64,000 bases of DNA, taken from the NCBI GenBank assembly GCA_938082505.1, contig CALLLH010000005.1, positions 1 through 64,000 on the forward strand, given 5' to 3'. This stretch comes from an uncultured Flavobacteriales bacterium (GTDB lineage: Bacteria > Bacteroidota > Bacteroidia > Flavobacteriales_D > Sanyastnellaceae). This document shows, piece after piece, positions 39,601 through 50,558 of the stretch. The notes under the pieces were generated by a model that was not told the DNA's origin, did no database searches, and saw only the letters and a list, made by a program, of their open reading frames with translations. The translations under genes were made by a program, and so were the position numbers. Each line of letters begins with the position of its first letter. Position 1 is the first letter of the stretch.

Positions 39601-41409
39601 ATGGAAGCCACGCCGCACATAAAACGCATCCTGCAGCGATTGCCTGACAGTCCGGGCGTCTATCAGCATTTCGATGCGGACGGCAATCTGCTGTACATCG
39701 GCAAAGCCAAAAGCCTCAAGAAGCGGGTCGCGAGCTATTTCAACAAACAGACTTACGAGAACGGCAAGACGAGGCTGCTTGTCAAGAAAATCGCCGACAT
39801 CAAATTCATTGTCGTGGAGACGGAAGTCGATGCGCTCCTGCTCGAGAACAGCCTGATCAAGGAGCACCAACCCCGGTACAACATCGAACTCAAGGACGAC
39901 AAGACCTACCCCTCCATCGTCATCCGCAAGGAACGCTTTCCGCGGGTCCATCCCACCCGCAACATCGTCCGGAACGGATCGGAGTACTTCGGGCCTTACG
40001 GATCGGTCAAGACGATGAACGCCGTGCTCGACATCGTTCGGAAACTCCACCCCATCCGCAATTGCTCCTATGACCTGAGCGCAAAGAACATCGAAGCGGG
40101 CAAATTCCGCGCCTGCCTGGAGCACGACCTGGGCAATTGCAAGGCGCCCTGCATCGGCAAACAGAGCCTGGAAGATTACGATGCCGGCGTCGATGCCATC
40201 CGCGACATTCTCAAAGGCAACATCAAGGACCTCGTGCGCACCTATGATGACGCCATGCGCCAGGCATCAGCGTCCTTTGCCTTCGAGGAAGCCGAGGAAT
40301 TCAAACGCCGCAAGGAGGCTTTGCAGAAGTTCCAGGCCAAAAGCGCCGTGGTCCATCCAAGTATTCACGATGTCGAAGTCTATTCGGTCATCAGCGACCC
40401 TTCAGCTGGCTATGTGAACTTCATGAAGGTCATGGACGGCGGAATCGTCCATGGCCAGACCATCGAGCTGCGCAAGCGCCTCGATGAAAGTGACCAGGAA
40501 CTGCTGGAATACGGCATCCTCGAAATCCGCAGCCGCTTCGAACTCCACAGCCCGGAAGTCTACACCAACATCCCTGTGCGCAGCATTGTGCCGGAAATCA
40601 AATGGCACGTGCCCCAGCGTGGTGACAAGAAGCGCCTGATCGAGCTTTCGGAACGCAACGCCAAATACACGATGCTCGACCGGCGCAAGCAGCAGGAGCA
40701 GGTTGACCCTGAAGCCGCGCAACACCGCGTCATGGAGACCTTGAAAAAGGACCTGCACCTGACTGAATTGCCCGTTCACATCGAGTGCTTCGACAATTCC
40801 AACATCCAGGGCACGAATCCCGCATCGGCCTGCGTCGTCTTCAAGAACGCCAAGCCCGCCAAGGCCGACTACAGGAAGTTCAACATCAAGACGGTGGAGG
40901 GGCCTGACGATTTTGCCTCCATGGCCGAAGTGGTTCACCGCCGCTACAGCCGCCTGGTTCAAGACGGTGAAAGCCTGCCGCAGCTCATCATCGTGGACGG
41001 GGGCAAGGGGCAGTTGTCGAGCGCCGTCGGCGCATTGAATGAACTTGGACTGATGGGGCGGGTCGCCATCATCGGCATCGCCAAGCGCCTCGAAGAACTC
41101 TATTTCCCCGGAGACAGCGTTGCCCTGCACCTCGACAAGCGCTCGGAATCGCTCAAGTTGATCCAAAGAATGCGGGACGAGGCCCATCGGTTCTCCCTTG
41201 CGCACCACCGCAAACGGCGCAGCGCAGCCGCACTCCGAAGCGAATTGGACGACATCCCGGGCATCGGTCCCGCCACACGGCACAAACTGCTCGCTGCTTT
41301 CGGCTCCGTGGAGGGCATTCGACAGGCGGACGAGGCCGATCTGCTCAAGTTCACTTCACTCAAGGTGGTGCAGGCCATGCGCACCCATTGGCAGGAAAAG
41401 GAAGGGTGA
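39601..41409 (+). CDS. uvrC: excinuclease ABC subunit C
   Basis: LPDSPGVYQHFDADGNLLYIGKAKSLKKRVASYF, IECFDNSNIQGTNPASACVVF, IVDGGKGQL, C-terminal HhH IPGIGPATRHKLL. Confidence 0.96.
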   Translation: MEATPHIKRILQRLPDSPGVYQHFDADGNLLYIGKAKSLKKRVASYFNKQTYENGKTRLLVKKIADIKFIVVETEVDALLLENSLIKEHQPRYNIELKDDKTYPSIVIRKERFPRVHPTRNIVRNGSEYFGPYGSVKTMNAVLDIVRKLHPIRNCSYDLSAKNIEAGKFRACLEHDLGNCKAPCIGKQSLEDYDAGVDAIRDILKGNIKDLVRTYDDAMRQASASFAFEEAEEFKRRKEALQKFQAKSAVVHPSIHDVEVYSVISDPSAGYVNFMKVMDGGIVHGQTIELRKRLDESDQELLEYGILEIRSRFELHSPEVYTNIPVRSIVPEIKWHVPQRGDKKRLIELSERNAKYTMLDRRKQQEQVDPEAAQHRVMETLKKDLHLTELPVHIECFDNSNIQGTNPASACVVFKNAKPAKADYRKFNIKTVEGPDDFASMAEVVHRRYSRLVQDGESLPQLIIVDGGKGQLSSAVGALNELGLMGRVAIIGIAKRLEELYFPGDSVALHLDKRSESLKLIQRMRDEAHRFSLAHHRKRRSAAALRSELDDIPGIGPATRHKLLAAFGSVEGIRQADEADLLKFTSLKVVQAMRTHWQEKEG

Positions 41410-41423
41410 GACCTGAACGGCGC

Positions 41424-42533
41424 TCAGTGCGGGCTTGAGAACGCCGGGTCCGCCAAGAATTCCGGGTCTGTCAATGTGTGCATGAACGCCACAAGGTCGG
41501 CGCGGTCCTGCGCCGTGAGGCCAAGACCATAATCCACATTGTACTGCATCATGGGGTCCATGCTGGGACTCGCCACCGCTCCATGGTCATAGTGATCCAG
41601 GACCTCATCCATATCGAAAAACCGGCCATCGTGCATGTACGGCGCCGAGACCATGACATTGCGGAGGGACGGCACCTTGAACTTGCCTTTGTCCATCTCT
41701 TGCTCGGTCACCGCCATGTAGCCGACATCCGACATGTCCGGCTCAGCGTCCAGGCCATTGTTCACGAACTGGTGGCTCGTGAAGTCCAATCCACTGTGAC
41801 AATGGGCACAATCCGCACCGCTGACTTCGGGGTTGAACGGGTCGAATTCATCGAAAAACAGGTCATAACCCCGCAACTCACTTTCCGTGAACTCCACTTC
41901 TCCAAGAAGCCAGGCATCATAGCGGCTTCGGTTGGACACCATGGTCAACAGGAATTGCTCGAGGGCCATCGCCAGACGCTCCGTGGTCACGGCTTCGGTG
42001 CCAAACGCCATCATGAACTGATCGCGGTATTCCCTGACGCCCGCCAGTTTGACCAAAACGTCCTCAAGGTCCTCATCCATTTCCAGGTCGTCCTGAATGG
42101 GCTGCAGGACCTGCTCACGCAAGCTTGACGCCCGGCCATCCCAAAAGAAACCGTGGCCATGGGTGCCACCATGGTGCACGTGCCACGCAAGATTCGAAAG
42201 CACCATACTGTGCCGGCCGCCCTCTTCGCCTGCAATGCCGACACTGAACACGGCCACATCCGAGAAATTGCGCTGTTGGGCATGACAATCCGCGCAGGCC
42301 TGGGTATTGTCCCCGGAGAGCTGCTTCTCATGAAACAGCATCCTGCCCAATTCGACACCCGCCTCGGTCAAGGGGTTGTCCTCCGGCCAATCGGGCTCGG
42401 GAAAATGGCGAATGTCAACGTTGAAGGGCGTCGGATCGTACACCGCAGGAAGCGGCTCCGGCTCGGGATCAGGCTTGCAGGCCACAAACAGGACCAACCC
42501 GACCAGACCCAATACTTGAAACTCCCGCATCAT
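41424..42533 (-). CDS. diheme cytochrome c peroxidase-family lipoprotein, MbnH-like by context
   Basis: Lipobox LVLFVACKPDPEPE; two CxxCH heme motifs (CADCH, CAHCH); LGRMLFHEKQLSGDNTQACADCH; PSLRNVMVSAPYMHDGRF. Confidence 0.82.
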   Translation of the reverse strand: MMREFQVLGLVGLVLFVACKPDPEPEPLPAVYDPTPFNVDIRHFPEPDWPEDNPLTEAGVELGRMLFHEKQLSGDNTQACADCHAQQRNFSDVAVFSVGIAGEEGGRHSMVLSNLAWHVHHGGTHGHGFFWDGRASSLREQVLQPIQDDLEMDEDLEDVLVKLAGVREYRDQFMMAFGTEAVTTERLAMALEQFLLTMVSNRSRYDAWLLGEVEFTESELRGYDLFFDEFDPFNPEVSGADCAHCHSGLDFTSHQFVNNGLDAEPDMSDVGYMAVTEQEMDKGKFKVPSLRNVMVSAPYMHDGRFFDMDEVLDHYDHGAVASPSMDPMMQYNVDYGLGLTAQDRADLVAFMHTLTDPEFLADPAFSSPH

Positions 42534-43486
42534 CCCTGCACCCAACGTCTGGTCTGACGGTCCGTCGCGTTGAAGATTGAAATCAGGAACGTGCCGGGTT
42601 TGACGTCCACCATCTTGAAGGTCTTGGAACCTGCGGGGATATCGTAAAGGCCCAATGACCGGCCAAGAATGTCCAGCAACTCTATCTGCACTGATGTATT
42701 CAGCGGACGGAAGAATTGCACACGAACTCCACCATCCATCTGGATGAGGTTGAAATCCAAGGACGGTCCTGCCACATCGTAAACACTGTTCGCTCCGGGC
42801 ATACGGAAGACGTGGTCTGCGAGGTTGTTGCAAACGAGCACCGCCTCACCATTCTCCCCATGATTGATGAGTCCAGCATCAACGGACAGCTGCTGATAGA
42901 ATCCCAGGACATCCGCTTCGACATCGAGGATCAAGGTGCCGTCCTCCATGGTCGCCAACACTTCCATTTGACCCGGGGTATGGTTGTCATCGCCCAGTGC
43001 ATGGATCTCATGGGTAATCACACCATTGATGCCCGCTCCACCCTCAAGGGCGATGAACCGATATCCTGCGGACCAACCCCAGTGCATGCTGGGGACTTGG
43101 GGTGCAAGCGGGTGACCAGCCGGCCAGGAAGCGGGGTCAGCATGGTTGTTGTCCGGGTCAATTCCGACGCTGAACTTCAATCCTTCCACGTTGGAGACTT
43201 CCGATACAGACCCAAGCGGGTGAACCTCATCGACATAGGCATCTGCCAAGACGTAGGCCCCTTCAATCGCCGTTTCCTGACCACCATCATGCACAAGGAT
43301 GAACATGCTGAGGTAGTACTCAAGGCGGTCAATCTCCACCTCTTCTCCCAACGGCGTGATCAGGTTCACATCCGCGTCGAACTCAGCCTGTCCAGCTTTG
43401 TGGTCGATGCGCAACGCCACAGGGGTCTGCGCCATCATGAGGCCGCCGGTGGCAATGAGAAGCGTTAAAATGCAGGTCCTGAGCAT
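42530..43486 (-). CDS. MbnP-like domain protein with T9SS type A-like C-terminal sorting domain
   Basis: PSMHWGWSAGYRFIALEG resembles MbnP family motif; C-term VQIELLDILGRSLGLYDIPAGSKTFKMVDVKPGTFLISIF...; ATGA overlap with downstream cytochrome gene. Confidence 0.75.
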   Translation of the reverse strand: MLRTCILTLLIATGGLMMAQTPVALRIDHKAGQAEFDADVNLITPLGEEVEIDRLEYYLSMFILVHDGGQETAIEGAYVLADAYVDEVHPLGSVSEVSNVEGLKFSVGIDPDNNHADPASWPAGHPLAPQVPSMHWGWSAGYRFIALEGGAGINGVITHEIHALGDDNHTPGQMEVLATMEDGTLILDVEADVLGFYQQLSVDAGLINHGENGEAVLVCNNLADHVFRMPGANSVYDVAGPSLDFNLIQMDGGVRVQFFRPLNTSVQIELLDILGRSLGLYDIPAGSKTFKMVDVKPGTFLISIFNATDRQTRRWVQG

Positions 43487-43548
43487 TGAACAAGGATTAT
43501 TACTATATGAGCAAAAGATACAAAATTTCAGACACATAGCTTTGCTGT

Positions 43549-44595
43549 ATGGACACGGAAAGGACTGAAATCGGGGCATTGGGGGAATTTGGTCTCATCT
43601 CCGAATTGACACGCAATCTGCCATCCCGACAGAAGAGCACCATTTTGGGTGTCGGAGACGATGCCGCCGTGATTTCCGCACCGGAAAAAGGGCTCCACAC
43701 CGTCGTCAGCAAGGACCTGCTGTGCGAAGGGGTCCATTTCGACCTCATGTACGCCCCCCTCAAGCACTTGGGATACAAAGCCATCGTTGTCAACATCAGC
43801 GACATCTGCGCCATGAACGCCAAGCCCACGCAGGTCTTGGTGGGACTCGCACTGTCCAACCGCTTCAGCGTTGAGGCAGCAAAAGAGCTGTATTCTGGAA
43901 TGCAGCTGGCCTGTGAACGATATGGTGTCGACCTCATCGGTGGCGATACGACCTCTTCCCGCGCCGGTCTGATGTTGAGTGTCACGGCCCTGGGCGTGGT
44001 GCAAGAGCAAAACATGACCCTTAGAAATGGCGCCAAGTCCGGTGATTTGCTCGTGGCGAGCGGTGAACTCGGTGGAGCCTACATGGGCCTTCAGGTCCTG
44101 GAAAGGGAGAAGCATGTCTTCAAGGAGGCTCCAGGGGCCCAGCCCGACCTCACGGGGTTTGAGGCCCTTCTGGAACGCCAGCTCAAACCCGAGGCCCGGG
44201 TAGATGTCATTGAGGAGCTGGCCAAGTTGGAGCTGGTGCCCTCCGCCATGATCGACATCTCCGATGGATTGGCCTCTGAAGCCCTTCACATTGCTGCACA
44301 ATCCGGTTGTGGTGTGCGCGTGTATGAGGACAAGATCCCCATGTCGGAACAGATGTACGAGACCGCCAGGGCCTTCAACCTCGACCCCACCCTGTGCACA
44401 CTCAGTGGAGGAGAGGACTACGAGCTGCTGTTCACGGTACCGCAGGATCGATTCGAGGACATCAGGAACCACCCCATGTTCTCCATTGTGGGACACATGA
44501 CGGAAGACCCCAACGAGCGCAAATTGATCACCCGCAACGGCATGGAAACGGAACTCAAGGCCCAAGGGTGGGATGGGCTCAAGGATCCATCCTGA
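43549..44595 (+). CDS. thiL: thiamine-monophosphate kinase
   Basis: GVGDDAAVISAPEKGLHTVVSKDLLCEGVHFDL, NISDICAMNAKPTQVLVGLAL, MIDISDGLASEALHIA, SGGEDYELLFTV. Confidence 0.94.
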   Translation: MDTERTEIGALGEFGLISELTRNLPSRQKSTILGVGDDAAVISAPEKGLHTVVSKDLLCEGVHFDLMYAPLKHLGYKAIVVNISDICAMNAKPTQVLVGLALSNRFSVEAAKELYSGMQLACERYGVDLIGGDTTSSRAGLMLSVTALGVVQEQNMTLRNGAKSGDLLVASGELGGAYMGLQVLEREKHVFKEAPGAQPDLTGFEALLERQLKPEARVDVIEELAKLELVPSAMIDISDGLASEALHIAAQSGCGVRVYEDKIPMSEQMYETARAFNLDPTLCTLSGGEDYELLFTVPQDRFEDIRNHPMFSIVGHMTEDPNERKLITRNGMETELKAQGWDGLKDPS

Positions 44596-44636: not shown

Positions 44637-44665
44637 ATTGTGTCCAAATAGCAGCACTACCTTTG
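44637..44665 (+). promoter_or_regulatory. candidate promoter of suf operon
   Basis: TACCTTTG (44658-44665) exact TAnnTTTG box, with ATTG 17 nt upstream (suboptimal spacing). Confidence 0.4.
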
Positions 44666-44694
44666 TGGCGTATCCCCTGAAAGGGGGATATGCA

Positions 44695-45033
44695 ATGACC
44701 GAAAACATGATCACCGTCCACGAGAATGCAAAGGACCAGGTCCACCGCTTGATGGCGGAGCAGGGCTGTACAGAGGGAAGCTTCGTACGTGTGGGTGTCA
44801 AAGGCGGTGGCTGCAGCGGGCTCATGTACGAATTGACCTTCGATCATGAGATGAAAGAGGGTGACCAGAGTTTCGAGGATAACGGGGTCAAGGTGGTCGT
44901 GGACCGGAAGAGCTTCCTCTACCTCGTCGGCACTGAACTCCAGTACTCCGGAGGCCTCAATGGAAAGGGGTTTGTCTTCCACAATCCCAACGCCAACAGA
45001 ACCTGTGGCTGCGGAGAGAGTTTCTCCGTTTGA
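44695..45033 (+). CDS. iron-sulfur cluster assembly A-type protein (SufA/IscA/ErpA family)
   Basis: [17 protein letters not shown]...[16 protein letters not shown] with conserved Cys. Confidence 0.93.
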
Positions 45034-45046
45034 GCCCCTACACGCC

Positions 45047-46495
45047 ATGAGCGCAGCCGAAGACAATCCCCTGTTGGAGGAATTCACCCGAAAGGAGTAT
45101 GAATTCGGCTTCACCACCGACATCGCCTCCGACAAGATTCCCCCGGGACTGAACGAAGAGGTGATCAAGCTCATCAGCGCCAAAAAGAACGAGCCCGAAT
45201 GGATGCTCGAATGGCGCCTCGATGCCTTCAAGGTTTGGCAGTCCATGAAAGAGCCCGAATGGGCCCATGTCCAGTACCAGAAACCCGACTATCAGGCGAT
45301 CAGCTATTACAGCGCGCCCAAGTCTGCGGCACCATTGGGTTCCCTGGACGAAGTCGACCCGGAGCTTCGTGCCACCATGGACAAACTCGGCATCTCCCTC
45401 GAGGAGCAGAAGCGCCTTTCCGGCGTCGCCGTGGATTTCGTGATGGACAGTGTTTCCGTCGCCACTTCGTTCAAGGAGAAGCTCGGCGAACTCGGAATCA
45501 TCTTCTGCTCGATGAGTGAGGCCATCCAGAAACACCCCGACCTCGTGCGCCAGCATCTGGGCACGGTGGTTCCCGTCAAGGACAACTTCTTCTCCGCACT
45601 CAACTCCGCCGTCTTCACGGACGGCTCTTTCTGTTACATCCCGAAGGGCGCGCGCTGTCCGATGGAACTGTCCACCTATTTCCGGATCAACGAAGCGGGC
45701 ACTGGCCAATTCGAACGCACGCTCGTCGTAGCCGAGGAGGGCAGCTATGTGAGCTACCTGGAGGGTTGCACCGCTCCGCAGCGGGACGAGAACCAGCTGC
45801 ACGCAGCTGTCGTTGAGCTGGTTGCCAAGGATGATGCCGAAATCAAGTACAGCACCGTCCAGAATTGGTACCCTGGGGATGCCCAGGGCAAGGGCGGCGT
45901 TTTCAACTTCGTTACCAAACGTGGCATTTGTGAGACCCGCGCCAAAATCAGCTGGACACAGGTTGAAACTGGATCGGCCGTGACCTGGAAATATCCGAGT
46001 TGCATCCTCAAGGGCGACGGCAGCACCGGTGAGTTCTACTCCGTGGCGGTCACCAACAATGCCCAGCAGGCCGATACGGGCACCAAGATGATCCACCTCG
46101 GTGCGAACACCAATTCCACGATCATCTCCAAAGGCATCTCCGCTGGAAACAGCCAGAACAGTTACCGGGGTCTGGTGCAAATCGGGCCGCGGGCAAGGAA
46201 TGCCCGGAACTTCTCCCAGTGTGACTCCCTGCTCATGACCGACACCAGCGGAGCCCATACTTTCCCTTACATCGAGGCGAAGAATCCAACGGCTCAGATC
46301 GAGCACGAAGCCACCACTTCCAGAATCGGCGAAGACCAGATCTTTTATTGCCTGCAGCGGGGCCTGACCGAGGAACAGGCCATTGGCTTGATCGTCAACG
46401 GGTACGCCAAGGAAGTCCTGAACAAGCTCCCGATGGAATTCGCCGTCGAAGCACGAAAACTCCTCAGCATCTCGCTAGAAGGCAGCGTAGGCTGA
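45047..46495 (+). CDS. sufB: Fe-S cluster assembly protein SufB
   Basis: [88 protein letters not shown]-type sequence. Confidence 0.96.
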
Positions 46496-46515
46496 TCCCA
46501 CCATTACGATCCACC

Positions 46516-47277
46516 ATGCTCCAGATCGACAACCTCCATGCCCGCATCGGCGACACTGAGATCCTCAAAGGGTTGACCCTGTCCATGGGCGCCGGTGAGG
46601 TCCACGCCATCATGGGCCCCAACGGCTCGGGAAAGAGTACCCTCGCCAGCGTTCTCGCTGGCCGCGAGGAATACGAAGTCACCGCCGGAAGCATCACCTT
46701 CGACGGGGTGGACCTCTTGGAACTTGATGCCACCGAACGTGCCGTCGCCGGCATTTTTCTCGCATTCCAATACCCTGTGGAAATCCCGGGAGTGTCCAAC
46801 ATCAATTTCCTGCGCAGCGCCCTCAACAGCATCCGCGAACAGCGGGAGGAAGAACCCCTTTCAGGCAAAGACTTTCTCGCCAAGGTCAAGGCTTGCGCCC
46901 AACTTGTGGAGCTCGATGGAAAACTGCGCGACCGCTCGGTGAACGAAGGGTTCAGTGGAGGAGAAAAAAAGCGCAACGAGATCTTTCAGATGGCGATGCT
47001 TGAGCCGAGACTGGCTGTTTTGGACGAGACGGACAGCGGACTGGACATCGACGCCCTGCGGATCGTTTCCCACGGCGTGAACTCCATGCGCAGCGCTGGA
47101 CGCAGCTTCCTCGTCATCACACACTACCAGCGCCTGCTCGACCACATCGTGCCCGACCATGTTCACGTTTTGGCCGGTGGCCGGATCGTGCACAGCGGCG
47201 GTAAGGAATTGGCCTTGGAGCTGGAAGACAAAGGGTACGATTGGATCGTCGACAACCCTGCGACAGAAAAGGCATGA
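46516..47277 (+). CDS. sufC: Fe-S cluster assembly ATPase SufC
   Basis: AIMGPNGSGKSTLASVLAG, FSGGEKKRNEIFQMAMLEPRLAVLDETDSGLDIDAL. Confidence 0.96.
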   Translation: MLQIDNLHARIGDTEILKGLTLSMGAGEVHAIMGPNGSGKSTLASVLAGREEYEVTAGSITFDGVDLLELDATERAVAGIFLAFQYPVEIPGVSNINFLRSALNSIREQREEEPLSGKDFLAKVKACAQLVELDGKLRDRSVNEGFSGGEKKRNEIFQMAMLEPRLAVLDETDSGLDIDALRIVSHGVNSMRSAGRSFLVITHYQRLLDHIVPDHVHVLAGGRIVHSGGKELALELEDKGYDWIVDNPATEKA

Positions 47278-48548
47278 CCGAGGTCGTCACAACGACAAAG
47301 GAAGCGGCATTGGCCGCCCGCATCTCCGAAGCCATGGCGCTATCCGGAGTGGTTGGTGATGGCCATGCGGCGCAGCAGTATCTGGGGCAATTGCCCTATC
47401 CGACCACCCGCCTCGAGCGGTGGAAATACACCCGTGTGGCTCGGTTGCTCGATTTCGAGCCCCAGTCCCTCCCCGAGACCGATCCGCCAGGTCAAATCCT
47501 CCCGGGCTTCAATGCCCATCGCCTCGTCTTCACTGCGGGAAAGTTCACCGCGGGAACGGTGGTGGATGAGGGCAAGGATGGCTTGTTCATCGGACCGGTA
47601 TCCGCAGCCTTGGAGCGCTACCCCGAACGGGTTGGAGCGCTCGCGAAATCGGGCTTCAAGTCCAGCGAATGGTTTGCTGCCATGCAGGCGTCCGCTCCAC
47701 AGGATGGGGCCTGCATCCTCATCCCCGAGGGGCACCGTTCCGATCAGCCGATCCTCATTCATCACCACATGCCTGCGGGTGCGCGGGCGGCCCAACCCGG
47801 TCACCTCATCCAGGTCGGCCATGGGGCCACTGCTGAGGTCGTCTTGTGGTCTGACAGCCCCGCCGGAGCCTGCGGACTGATGAACGGCTCCCTCGATGCT
47901 TCGGTGGGCGATGCTGCCGACCTCACGCTCGAAATCGTGCAGGACGAGGCGGGCAAGGGCCACCACATCGGTCATCACCACTTCACCCAGGGCAAAGACA
48001 GCCAACTCACAGTGCGGACGGCAACCGCAAGGGCCCATTGGCTGCGCAACGATCTTCAGATCACCCAGGGAGGCACCGGAGCCAACAGCACTTTTCATGG
48101 CTGCTATCTCCCCAATGGTGAGCAGTTCGTGGACCACCACACCAGAATCGACCACGCCCACCCTGATGGGCAATCCGACGAGCTGTACAAGGGCCTTGCT
48201 GCCGATGCGGCCACCGCCGTATTCAACGGCAAAATCATGGTGCACAAGGATGCCCAGCGCATCGAAGCGTACCAAAGCAATGCCAACCTCCTGCTGGGAG
48301 AACGGGCCTCCGTCTTCACCAAGCCGGAACTTGAGATCTATGCGGACGACGTGCGTTGCAGCCACGGCTGTACCACGGGTCAATTCAACCGGGAAGCCCT
48401 GTTCTATCTGCGCTCCCGGGGAATGACCGAAACCGCCGCACACAACCTGTTGGTGCAGGCATTCCTCGCCGAAGTCCTCGACGGATTCCGGCCCATGATC
48501 CGCGATCATGTCCATGCCGTGTACGCCGAAAGGCTGGGCTGGACCTGA
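47274..48548 (+). CDS. sufD: Fe-S cluster assembly protein SufD
   Basis: Position after sufC (ATGA overlap) and SufD-type C-terminus ADDVRCSHGCTTGQFNREALFYLRSRGM. Confidence 0.93.
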   Translation: MTEVVTTTKEAALAARISEAMALSGVVGDGHAAQQYLGQLPYPTTRLERWKYTRVARLLDFEPQSLPETDPPGQILPGFNAHRLVFTAGKFTAGTVVDEGKDGLFIGPVSAALERYPERVGALAKSGFKSSEWFAAMQASAPQDGACILIPEGHRSDQPILIHHHMPAGARAAQPGHLIQVGHGATAEVVLWSDSPAGACGLMNGSLDASVGDAADLTLEIVQDEAGKGHHIGHHHFTQGKDSQLTVRTATARAHWLRNDLQITQGGTGANSTFHGCYLPNGEQFVDHHTRIDHAHPDGQSDELYKGLAADAATAVFNGKIMVHKDAQRIEAYQSNANLLLGERASVFTKPELEIYADDVRCSHGCTTGQFNREALFYLRSRGMTETAAHNLLVQAFLAEVLDGFRPMIRDHVHAVYAERLGWT

Positions 48549-49291
48549 TGGACCTCGTCAGACTCGACCGTCTCCTCATTGACCGTGGCATTGTTGCCAG
48601 TCGGCCCCGGGCCGAACGGCTCATTGCCGAGCATGGCGTCCTGGTCAATGGGGCCCTGGTCCACAAACCCGGAAAGAAAGTGCCCGCAGATGCACAGCTT
48701 GAGCCTCAGGGAGAGGACCTGCCGTGGGTGTCCAGGGGGGCGCTGAAACTCATTGCGGCGCTCGATGCCTTCAGTCTGGATCTCCACGACAGGGTCGTGC
48801 TCGACCTGGGAGCTTCGACAGGGGGGTTTACCGAAGTTTGCCTGCACGGGGGCGCCCGGCAGATCCATGCCGTCGATGTGGGCAGCGATCAACTGGCACC
48901 GCACTTGAAGGAGGACCCGCGCGTCCGGAACATCCAGCAGATGCACGTGAAGCACCTCACTTCAGAACACCTTCAACCCCCGCCCGACACCATCGTCATC
49001 GACCTGTCCTTCATCTCGCTGGAGCATGTCTGGCCGAGAATGTCCGGCTGGCTGGGCCCCGAGGGCTTTGGCGTCGCCCTGATCAAACCGCAATTCGAAG
49101 TCGGTCCTGAGCACCTTGGAAGAAGTGGCGTCGTGCGGGATGATAGAATCCGCGCCAAAGCGGTCGCGCGATGCTGCTCATCGGCGGCAAACCACGGCTT
49201 TTCCTGTTCGACCCCCATGGATTCTCCCATTGAGGGCGGAAGCGGCAACCGTGAATTCCTCCTTCATTTCACATGGGGCCATTCGGCCTGA
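48548..49291 (+). CDS. TlyA family S4-domain RNA methyltransferase
   Basis: S4 domain RLDRLLIDRGIVASRPRAERLIAEHGVLVNG; SAM motif VVLDLGASTGGFTEVCLHGGARQIHAVDVGSDQL; LIKPQFEVGPEHLGRSGVV. Confidence 0.9.
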   Translation: MDLVRLDRLLIDRGIVASRPRAERLIAEHGVLVNGALVHKPGKKVPADAQLEPQGEDLPWVSRGALKLIAALDAFSLDLHDRVVLDLGASTGGFTEVCLHGGARQIHAVDVGSDQLAPHLKEDPRVRNIQQMHVKHLTSEHLQPPPDTIVIDLSFISLEHVWPRMSGWLGPEGFGVALIKPQFEVGPEHLGRSGVVRDDRIRAKAVARCCSSAANHGFSCSTPMDSPIEGGSGNREFLLHFTWGHSA

Positions 49292-49325
49292 ACCTTTACT
49301 TCGCAGGGCGGTTCCCCCAATAGAC

Positions 49326-50558
<1,233 letters not shown>

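Follow-up and report, generated by a model that had tools for sequence, protein, structure and literature searches.

An MbnP with a probable T9SS tail and its overlapping MbnH-like gene in a Flavobacteriales genome: a candidate surface copper-binding protein made by Trp oxidation

The closest described relatives of the locus presented here are MbnP and MbnH of Methylosinus trichosporium OB3b (solved structures 7l6g and 6e1c, respectively), an adjacent pair drawn from the same two protein families. Methylosinus MbnH reportedly converts a Trp of MbnP into a kynurenine that binds copper. Oxidation of a protein Trp by a di-haem enzyme, the role that we propose below for the MbnH-like protein of our locus, is also the activity of MauG. 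Likewise, MopE-SACCP of Methylococcus capsulatus and CorA-CorB of Methylomicrobium album are two-gene units, each pairing a copper protein of the cell surface with a CCP-like di-haem enzyme, and in MopE and CorA a Trp-derived kynurenine and two His residues hold Cu(I) at the cell surface (PMC3912023). These proteins have no marked sequence similarity to MbnPs, and conservation of the MbnP-MbnH pair far beyond methanobactin producers was noted already in 2013 (PMC3621798). In the literature searched, we found nothing on MbnP or MbnH in Bacteroidota or in connection with the T9SS. Here, we propose, with a probability of roughly 60%, that an MbnP-like protein of a Flavobacteriales bacterium acquires its copper site through Trp oxidation of the MbnH type and is exported by the T9SS to bind copper at the cell surface, and is thus a Bacteroidota counterpart of MopE/CorA.

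The window, by which we mean the whole 64,000-nucleotide stretch of DNA that was analysed, carries an mbnP-like gene running from 43486 to 42530 (product P0001, 318 aa) followed by an mbnH-like gene running from 42533 to 41424 (product P0002, 369 aa). The two genes form a single overlapping unit, sharing the 4 bp ATGA at 42530-42533, and constitute a translationally coupled MbnP-MbnH unit. A first-pass annotation made from the sequence alone had placed both genes at exactly these coordinates, with the same ATGA overlap and with thiL and uvrC as flanking genes, all of which we recovered; the strand, which it did not give, is minus for both genes. On one side thiL (43549-44595, plus strand) is divergent from mbnP and 62 bp away, and this gap is the likely place of the promoter of the pair; on the other side uvrC (39601-41409, plus strand) is convergent with mbnH. 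Beyond thiL lies a suf iron-sulphur cluster operon (44638-50558) with a gene for a TlyA-like methyltransferase inside it. In contrast to the OB3b pair, none of mbnA, mbnB or mbnC was seen among the neighbour genes read within the window. The features referred to below are as follows.

42530..43486, minus strand: mbnP-like gene (P0001), 318 aa, with a putative Sec signal peptide, an MbnP domain at about residues 20-230 and a probable T9SS C-terminal domain at about 243-318
43073..43081, minus strand: W136-G-W138 (WxW), the motif holding the predicted oxidised Trp, from conservation and alignment to 7l6g
43001..43003, minus strand: His162, predicted copper ligand, aligned to a His of 7l6g
42860..42862, minus strand: His209, candidate second ligand, present in 104/104 T9SS-type MbnPs
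42533..42760, minus strand: probable sorting domain of T9SS type A-like character (residues 243-318) with TRRWVQG as its last residues, from TIGR04183, the structural model and conservation in the genus
41424..42533, minus strand: mbnH-like gene (P0002), 369 aa, a di-haem MauG-superfamily lipoprotein of the Trp type, from TIGR04039 and 6e1c
42477..42479, minus strand: Cys19 of the lipobox LFVAC of P0002, read from the sequence and nearly invariant in alignment A3
42282..42296, minus strand: first haem motif C80ADCH84, invariant in Trp-type and non-Trp-type enzymes
42141..42143, minus strand: Trp131, inter-haem site, Trp in 77/77 Trp-type enzymes and absent from 78/78 others
41796..41810, minus strand: second haem motif C242AHCH246, read from the sequence and kept in both enzyme types
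41589..41591, minus strand: Tyr315, predicted low-spin haem ligand, aligned with a Tyr of 6e1c
43487..43548, no strand: intergenic region between mbnP and thiL, 62 bp, divergent, from the gene coordinates

The MbnP-like character of P0001 had been suggested by a motif at residues 134-149 (MHWGWSAGYRFIALEG), and the PF20243 MbnP profile confirms it (81 bits, cut-off 27 bits, E 1.4e-22). TIGR04052, the model for methanobactin-type MbnP (formerly the four-Cys motif protein), gives a local match to residues 96-149 at 34.9 bits, below its cut-off of 140, and the four-Cys motif of OB3b MbnP is absent from P0001, which has a single Cys after the putative signal peptide. Since that score falls so far below the cut-off, and since there is one Cys and not four, P0001 is, judged by its sequence, an MbnP in the broad sense that lies outside the methanobactin-associated subtype. 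A phmmer search of the PDB with P0001 alone returned no match; a profile built from 49 Bacteroidota MbnPs matches 7l6g with E 2e-6, and in this family alignment the WxW and the downstream His that the Methylosinus protein shares with P0001 fall on W136, W138 and H162. The AlphaFold2 model of P0001 (mean pLDDT 93.2) shows two domains with a linker of low confidence between them (about 231-240), and the N-terminus, in both sequence and model, is a hydrophobic helix at residues 2-15 followed by AQ. The top six Foldseek matches of this model are the six chains of 7l6g (best E 8.6e-8), with a TM-score of 0.42 over the two-domain model.

Alignment brought out W136 and W138 as candidates for the modified Trp that the first-pass annotation had expected to find, and both are near-invariant: W136 occurs in 54/54 and W138 in 53/54 phylum-wide PF20243 matches, which were drawn by profile and not by motif. 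It is on this 54-protein set that Trp conservation rests, as the invariance of W136, W138 and H135 across our larger set of 104 T9SS-type loci is in part a product of the search pattern. H162 is kept in all 54 phylum-wide MbnPs and in all 104 of the T9SS type. By analogy with MopE and CorA, we predict that P0001 has a counterpart of their kynurenine and His ligands (PMC3912023). However, MopE and CorA have the motif Kyn-x-His where P0001 has W-x-W, and they are not exported by the T9SS.

A further difference from OB3b MbnP is the probable T9SS tail. The C-terminal domains of T9SS substrates have a beta-sandwich fold, act as signals for export and are cleaved by PorU (PMC4804311). The C-terminus of P0001 is modelled as a separate beta domain, and the RgpB C-terminal domain 7pq4 is among the Foldseek matches of P0001. 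Taken alone, the tail scores 16.1 bits with TIGR04183, below the cut-off of 23 (E 0.0085). This low score favours an alternative in which the domain does not function as a T9SS signal and P0001 remains periplasmic, but we judge that very unlikely given that the tail is consistent across the genus, with TRRW[IV]QG or a near match at its end in those congeners that were examined, that the beta domain is well predicted, that relatives carry textbook tails, with a TIGR04183 match at E<=0.05 in 33 of the 43 in alignment A2, and that the host genome encodes the T9SS translocon and sortase (SprA, 2345 bits; PorU, 1083 bits). The same genome has 40 TIGR04183 tails above the cut-off. The tail of P0001, weak when taken alone, is thus convincing together with its relatives and the modelled domain, and the earlier suggestion of a type A-like sorting domain probably holds in spite of the sub-threshold score.

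Turning to the enzyme, P0002 was described in the first-pass annotation as a di-haem lipoprotein, which agrees with its FVAC19 lipobox and its two CxxCH motifs. It shares with OB3b MbnH these two motifs, an inter-haem Trp and a low-spin Tyr. TIGR04039 (MbnH) is the best of all NCBIfam models for P0002 at 229 bits, under its curated cut-off of 362.85, and MauG scores lower, at 166.5 bits; MauG also differs in that no methylamine dehydrogenase partner was seen here. We rejected the rank of TIGR04039 as sufficient proof of an MbnH, as it outscores MauG for the three nearest CCP/MauG proteins that are unpaired in this genome, too. Because the score is sub-threshold and other CCP/MauG proteins likewise rank this model first, membership of P0002 in the family rests on the structure match, the residues and the gene pairing. 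The nearest solved relative is MbnH 6e1c both by sequence (E 2e-48, followed by a CCP at 7e-32) and by fold (2.8e-23, followed by 3.4e-18). We take W131, P145, E151 and Y315 of P0002 to correspond to MauG Trp93, Pro107, Glu113 and Tyr294, the first three at one constant offset, and the inter-haem site to be that of MauG Trp93 and CCP Trp94. The haem-site Tyr that alignment was expected to reveal is Tyr315, which occupies the low-spin ligand position in place of the Met of CCPs, as in MauG and MbnH; Tyr is found there in 129/135 sequences, and in 77/77 Trp-type and 78/78 non-Trp-type enzymes.

That P0002 is an ordinary CcpA-type peroxidase standing beside mbnP by chance might be entertained, as the superfamily contains CCPs of similar fold and every CCP/MauG protein of the genome matches the MbnH profile to some degree. 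However, the low-spin Tyr, the wide margin by which 6e1c is the nearest structure and the presence of a di-haem gene directly downstream in 54/54 of the phylum-wide mbnP genes fetched make this very improbable. With a strong MbnP profile match for one product and a cytochrome nearest to MbnH, not to CCPs, for the other, we retain the reading of the locus as an MbnP/MbnH pair. Two more CCP/MauG lipoproteins of the genome (L228 on contig C24 and L229 on contig C58) are unpaired and have Tyr as the low-spin residue, one divergent from the gene of a large secreted protein and the other lying between genes for a glutamyl-tRNA synthetase-like protein and a small secreted protein.

The pair is not a peculiarity of this genome; hundreds of related bacteria carry relatives. 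MbnP is encoded in about a quarter of the Bacteroidota genomes sampled (97/396) and in 99 of 101 genomes of the host's family; G425, a genome of the same family, has six copies. An MbnP-MbnH pair free of methanobactin is the normal state in Bacteroidota. The earlier remark that the pair stands alone is correct for the locus but not for the genome, which has a second mbnP-mbnH pair on contig C11, with a lipoprotein MbnP and, in this genus, an Nramp-like gene directly after it. There (L003:6090-9465 of the host genome, G000), lipoprotein-type mbnP, mbnH and the Nramp-like transporter gene are arranged head to tail; the congeners L092, L098, L100, L130, L131 and L132 retain the order mbnH-Nramp.

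Which metal P0001 would bind has to be judged largely from other loci. No copper genes adjoin the window pair, its neighbours being thiL and uvrC, and the host genome has only two HMA domains. Together with the Nramp-like gene directly following the second pair, these facts would suit a pair that serves another metal, such as iron or manganese, or some non-copper ligand. Against this, copper genes are enriched near T9SS-type mbnP elsewhere, and the metal bound by the known functional relatives MopE and CorA is copper (PMC3912023). A CusA/CzcA-type pump, a CopA copper ATPase or an HMA or HMBD (heavy-metal-binding-domain) protein lies within about 5 kb at 23/104 T9SS-type loci. Members of the HMA-chaperone/copper-ATPase cluster are neighbours at 12/104 loci, where about 0.9 HMA domains would be expected from 4.7 per genome, an enrichment that is rough in that the loci are phylogenetically non-independent, though drawn from several families. 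A cluster of AraC-type neighbours with an HMA-like CxxC was excluded from the copper-gene count, having no HMA domain by Pfam. On balance, we consider a ligand other than copper unlikely and favour copper as the metal of P0001. A small Cys/His-rich HYC_CC_PP protein is encoded near 20/104 T9SS-type mbnP loci, often just upstream of mbnP (L193, L158, L200 and 17 others), and is a candidate for an extra copper-handling part.

The T9SS-tailed MbnPs are a recognisable Bacteroidota subfamily with the signature PSMHWGW[AS]xGYRF, found in Flavobacteriales, Saprospiraceae, Chitinophagales and others. Although the simple combination of one MbnP with one MbnH holds for the window, it is a simplified form, as the enzyme in this clade, in contrast to OB3b MbnH, usually comes in tandem with a second di-haem partner. 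Among 114 loci with sufficient flanking sequence (counting duplicates), 66 have two tandem di-haem genes. At all 60 distinct tandem loci exactly one enzyme has the inter-haem Trp and one lacks it (mostly Arg), with the non-Trp gene first in 55 and the order reversed in 5. Taibaiella koreensis (L184) has such a tandem locus, and L116:3373-4374 is an example of a non-Trp gene. The 77 Trp-type proteins form one supported group that contains P0002. Since both haem motifs, Tyr315, Pro145 and Glu151 are retained in both types, the non-Trp type looks, from these residues, like a working enzyme. BthA of Burkholderia, whose inter-haem site holds Ser and not Trp and which is a precedent for the Ser/Arg paralogues described here, still attains the bis-Fe(IV) state (PMC6405878), although it belongs to a different subfamily and has no MbnP partner.

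Tentatively, two obligately different MbnH-family enzymes, with and without an inter-haem Trp relay, might mature the T9SS-exported MbnP by successive or complementary oxidations, for example of W136 and W138, before it is placed at the surface. We found no earlier description of a two-enzyme system for protein-Trp modification. At lipoprotein-type loci with two di-haem genes (L080, L081 and L036) the first enzyme has Ala at the inter-haem site and Phe for the low-spin Tyr, and the second enzyme of L036 has the inter-haem Trp; the Trp/non-Trp rule may therefore extend beyond T9SS-type loci.

In the genus of the host, the non-Trp counterpart is no longer part of the mbnP locus. This gene, on contig C20, encodes Ser at the inter-haem site, is present in 16/17 congeners and adjoins a gene for a conserved small secreted protein. 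In the host genome (L225:6483-8232) the MauG-like di-haem gene overlaps that of the secreted protein, which is 226 aa long, contains several Trp and an EF-hand-like stretch (DYDGDGLISTPDL) and has no Pfam or NCBIfam match; the arrangement is repeated in L226 and L227, and the protein may be a new substrate for a MauG-like enzyme. The P0002 orthologue occurs in 8/17 congeners, always together with a P0001 orthologue. However, in L096, L105, L151 and L154 mbnP lies between thiL and uvrC as in the window, but the di-haem gene has been cleanly lost, in at least two independent events; WxW and H162 are intact. Because these four relatives keep mbnP after deletion of mbnH, a strict one-to-one dependence of MbnP and MbnH is unsupported. 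In G483 the only matches to mbnP are fragments that stop codons interrupt.

The genome has up to three enzymes of the MbnH family, and our main doubt concerns which of them acts on P0001. P0002 might not be the sole or essential modifier of a genuine MbnP; the enzyme of the C11 pair or the C20 paralogue could act in trans, leaving P0002 redundant or responsible for a second step. The four loci with an intact mbnP and no di-haem gene alongside speak for such an arrangement, as do the paralogous MbnH retained in G467, G493 and G496, the wide retention of the non-Trp enzyme in the congeners and the two different di-haem enzymes at 60 T9SS-type loci. We nevertheless find it doubtful, since within the genus the P0002 orthologue never occurs without mbnP and the two genes overlap. 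The C20 paralogue in particular is weakened as a likely trans partner by its own secreted neighbour and by its persistence in G424, which has no T9SS-type mbnP.

Based on these observations, we propose the following model, in which P0002 is the modifying enzyme. P0001 would cross the inner membrane by the Sec route and fold in the periplasm. There, P0002 would be brought by H2O2 into a high-valent state that involves Trp131, and would oxidise one of the two Trp residues of W136-x-W138, with kynurenine as the most likely product. The modified residue, together with H162 and probably H209 or H135, would then bind copper. SprA would export the finished protein by way of its C-terminal domain, after which PorU would remove this domain and anchor P0001 at the cell surface.

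The strict pairing of Trp-type and non-Trp-type enzymes offers a natural test of the purpose of the inter-haem Trp in MauG-like enzymes. The four relatives without this mbnH can reveal whether MbnP receives its modification in trans or functions without one. If our proposal is true, Trp-derived copper binding at the cell surface would not be a speciality of methanotrophs but a widespread trait of Bacteroidota, achieved through an export machine of their own.
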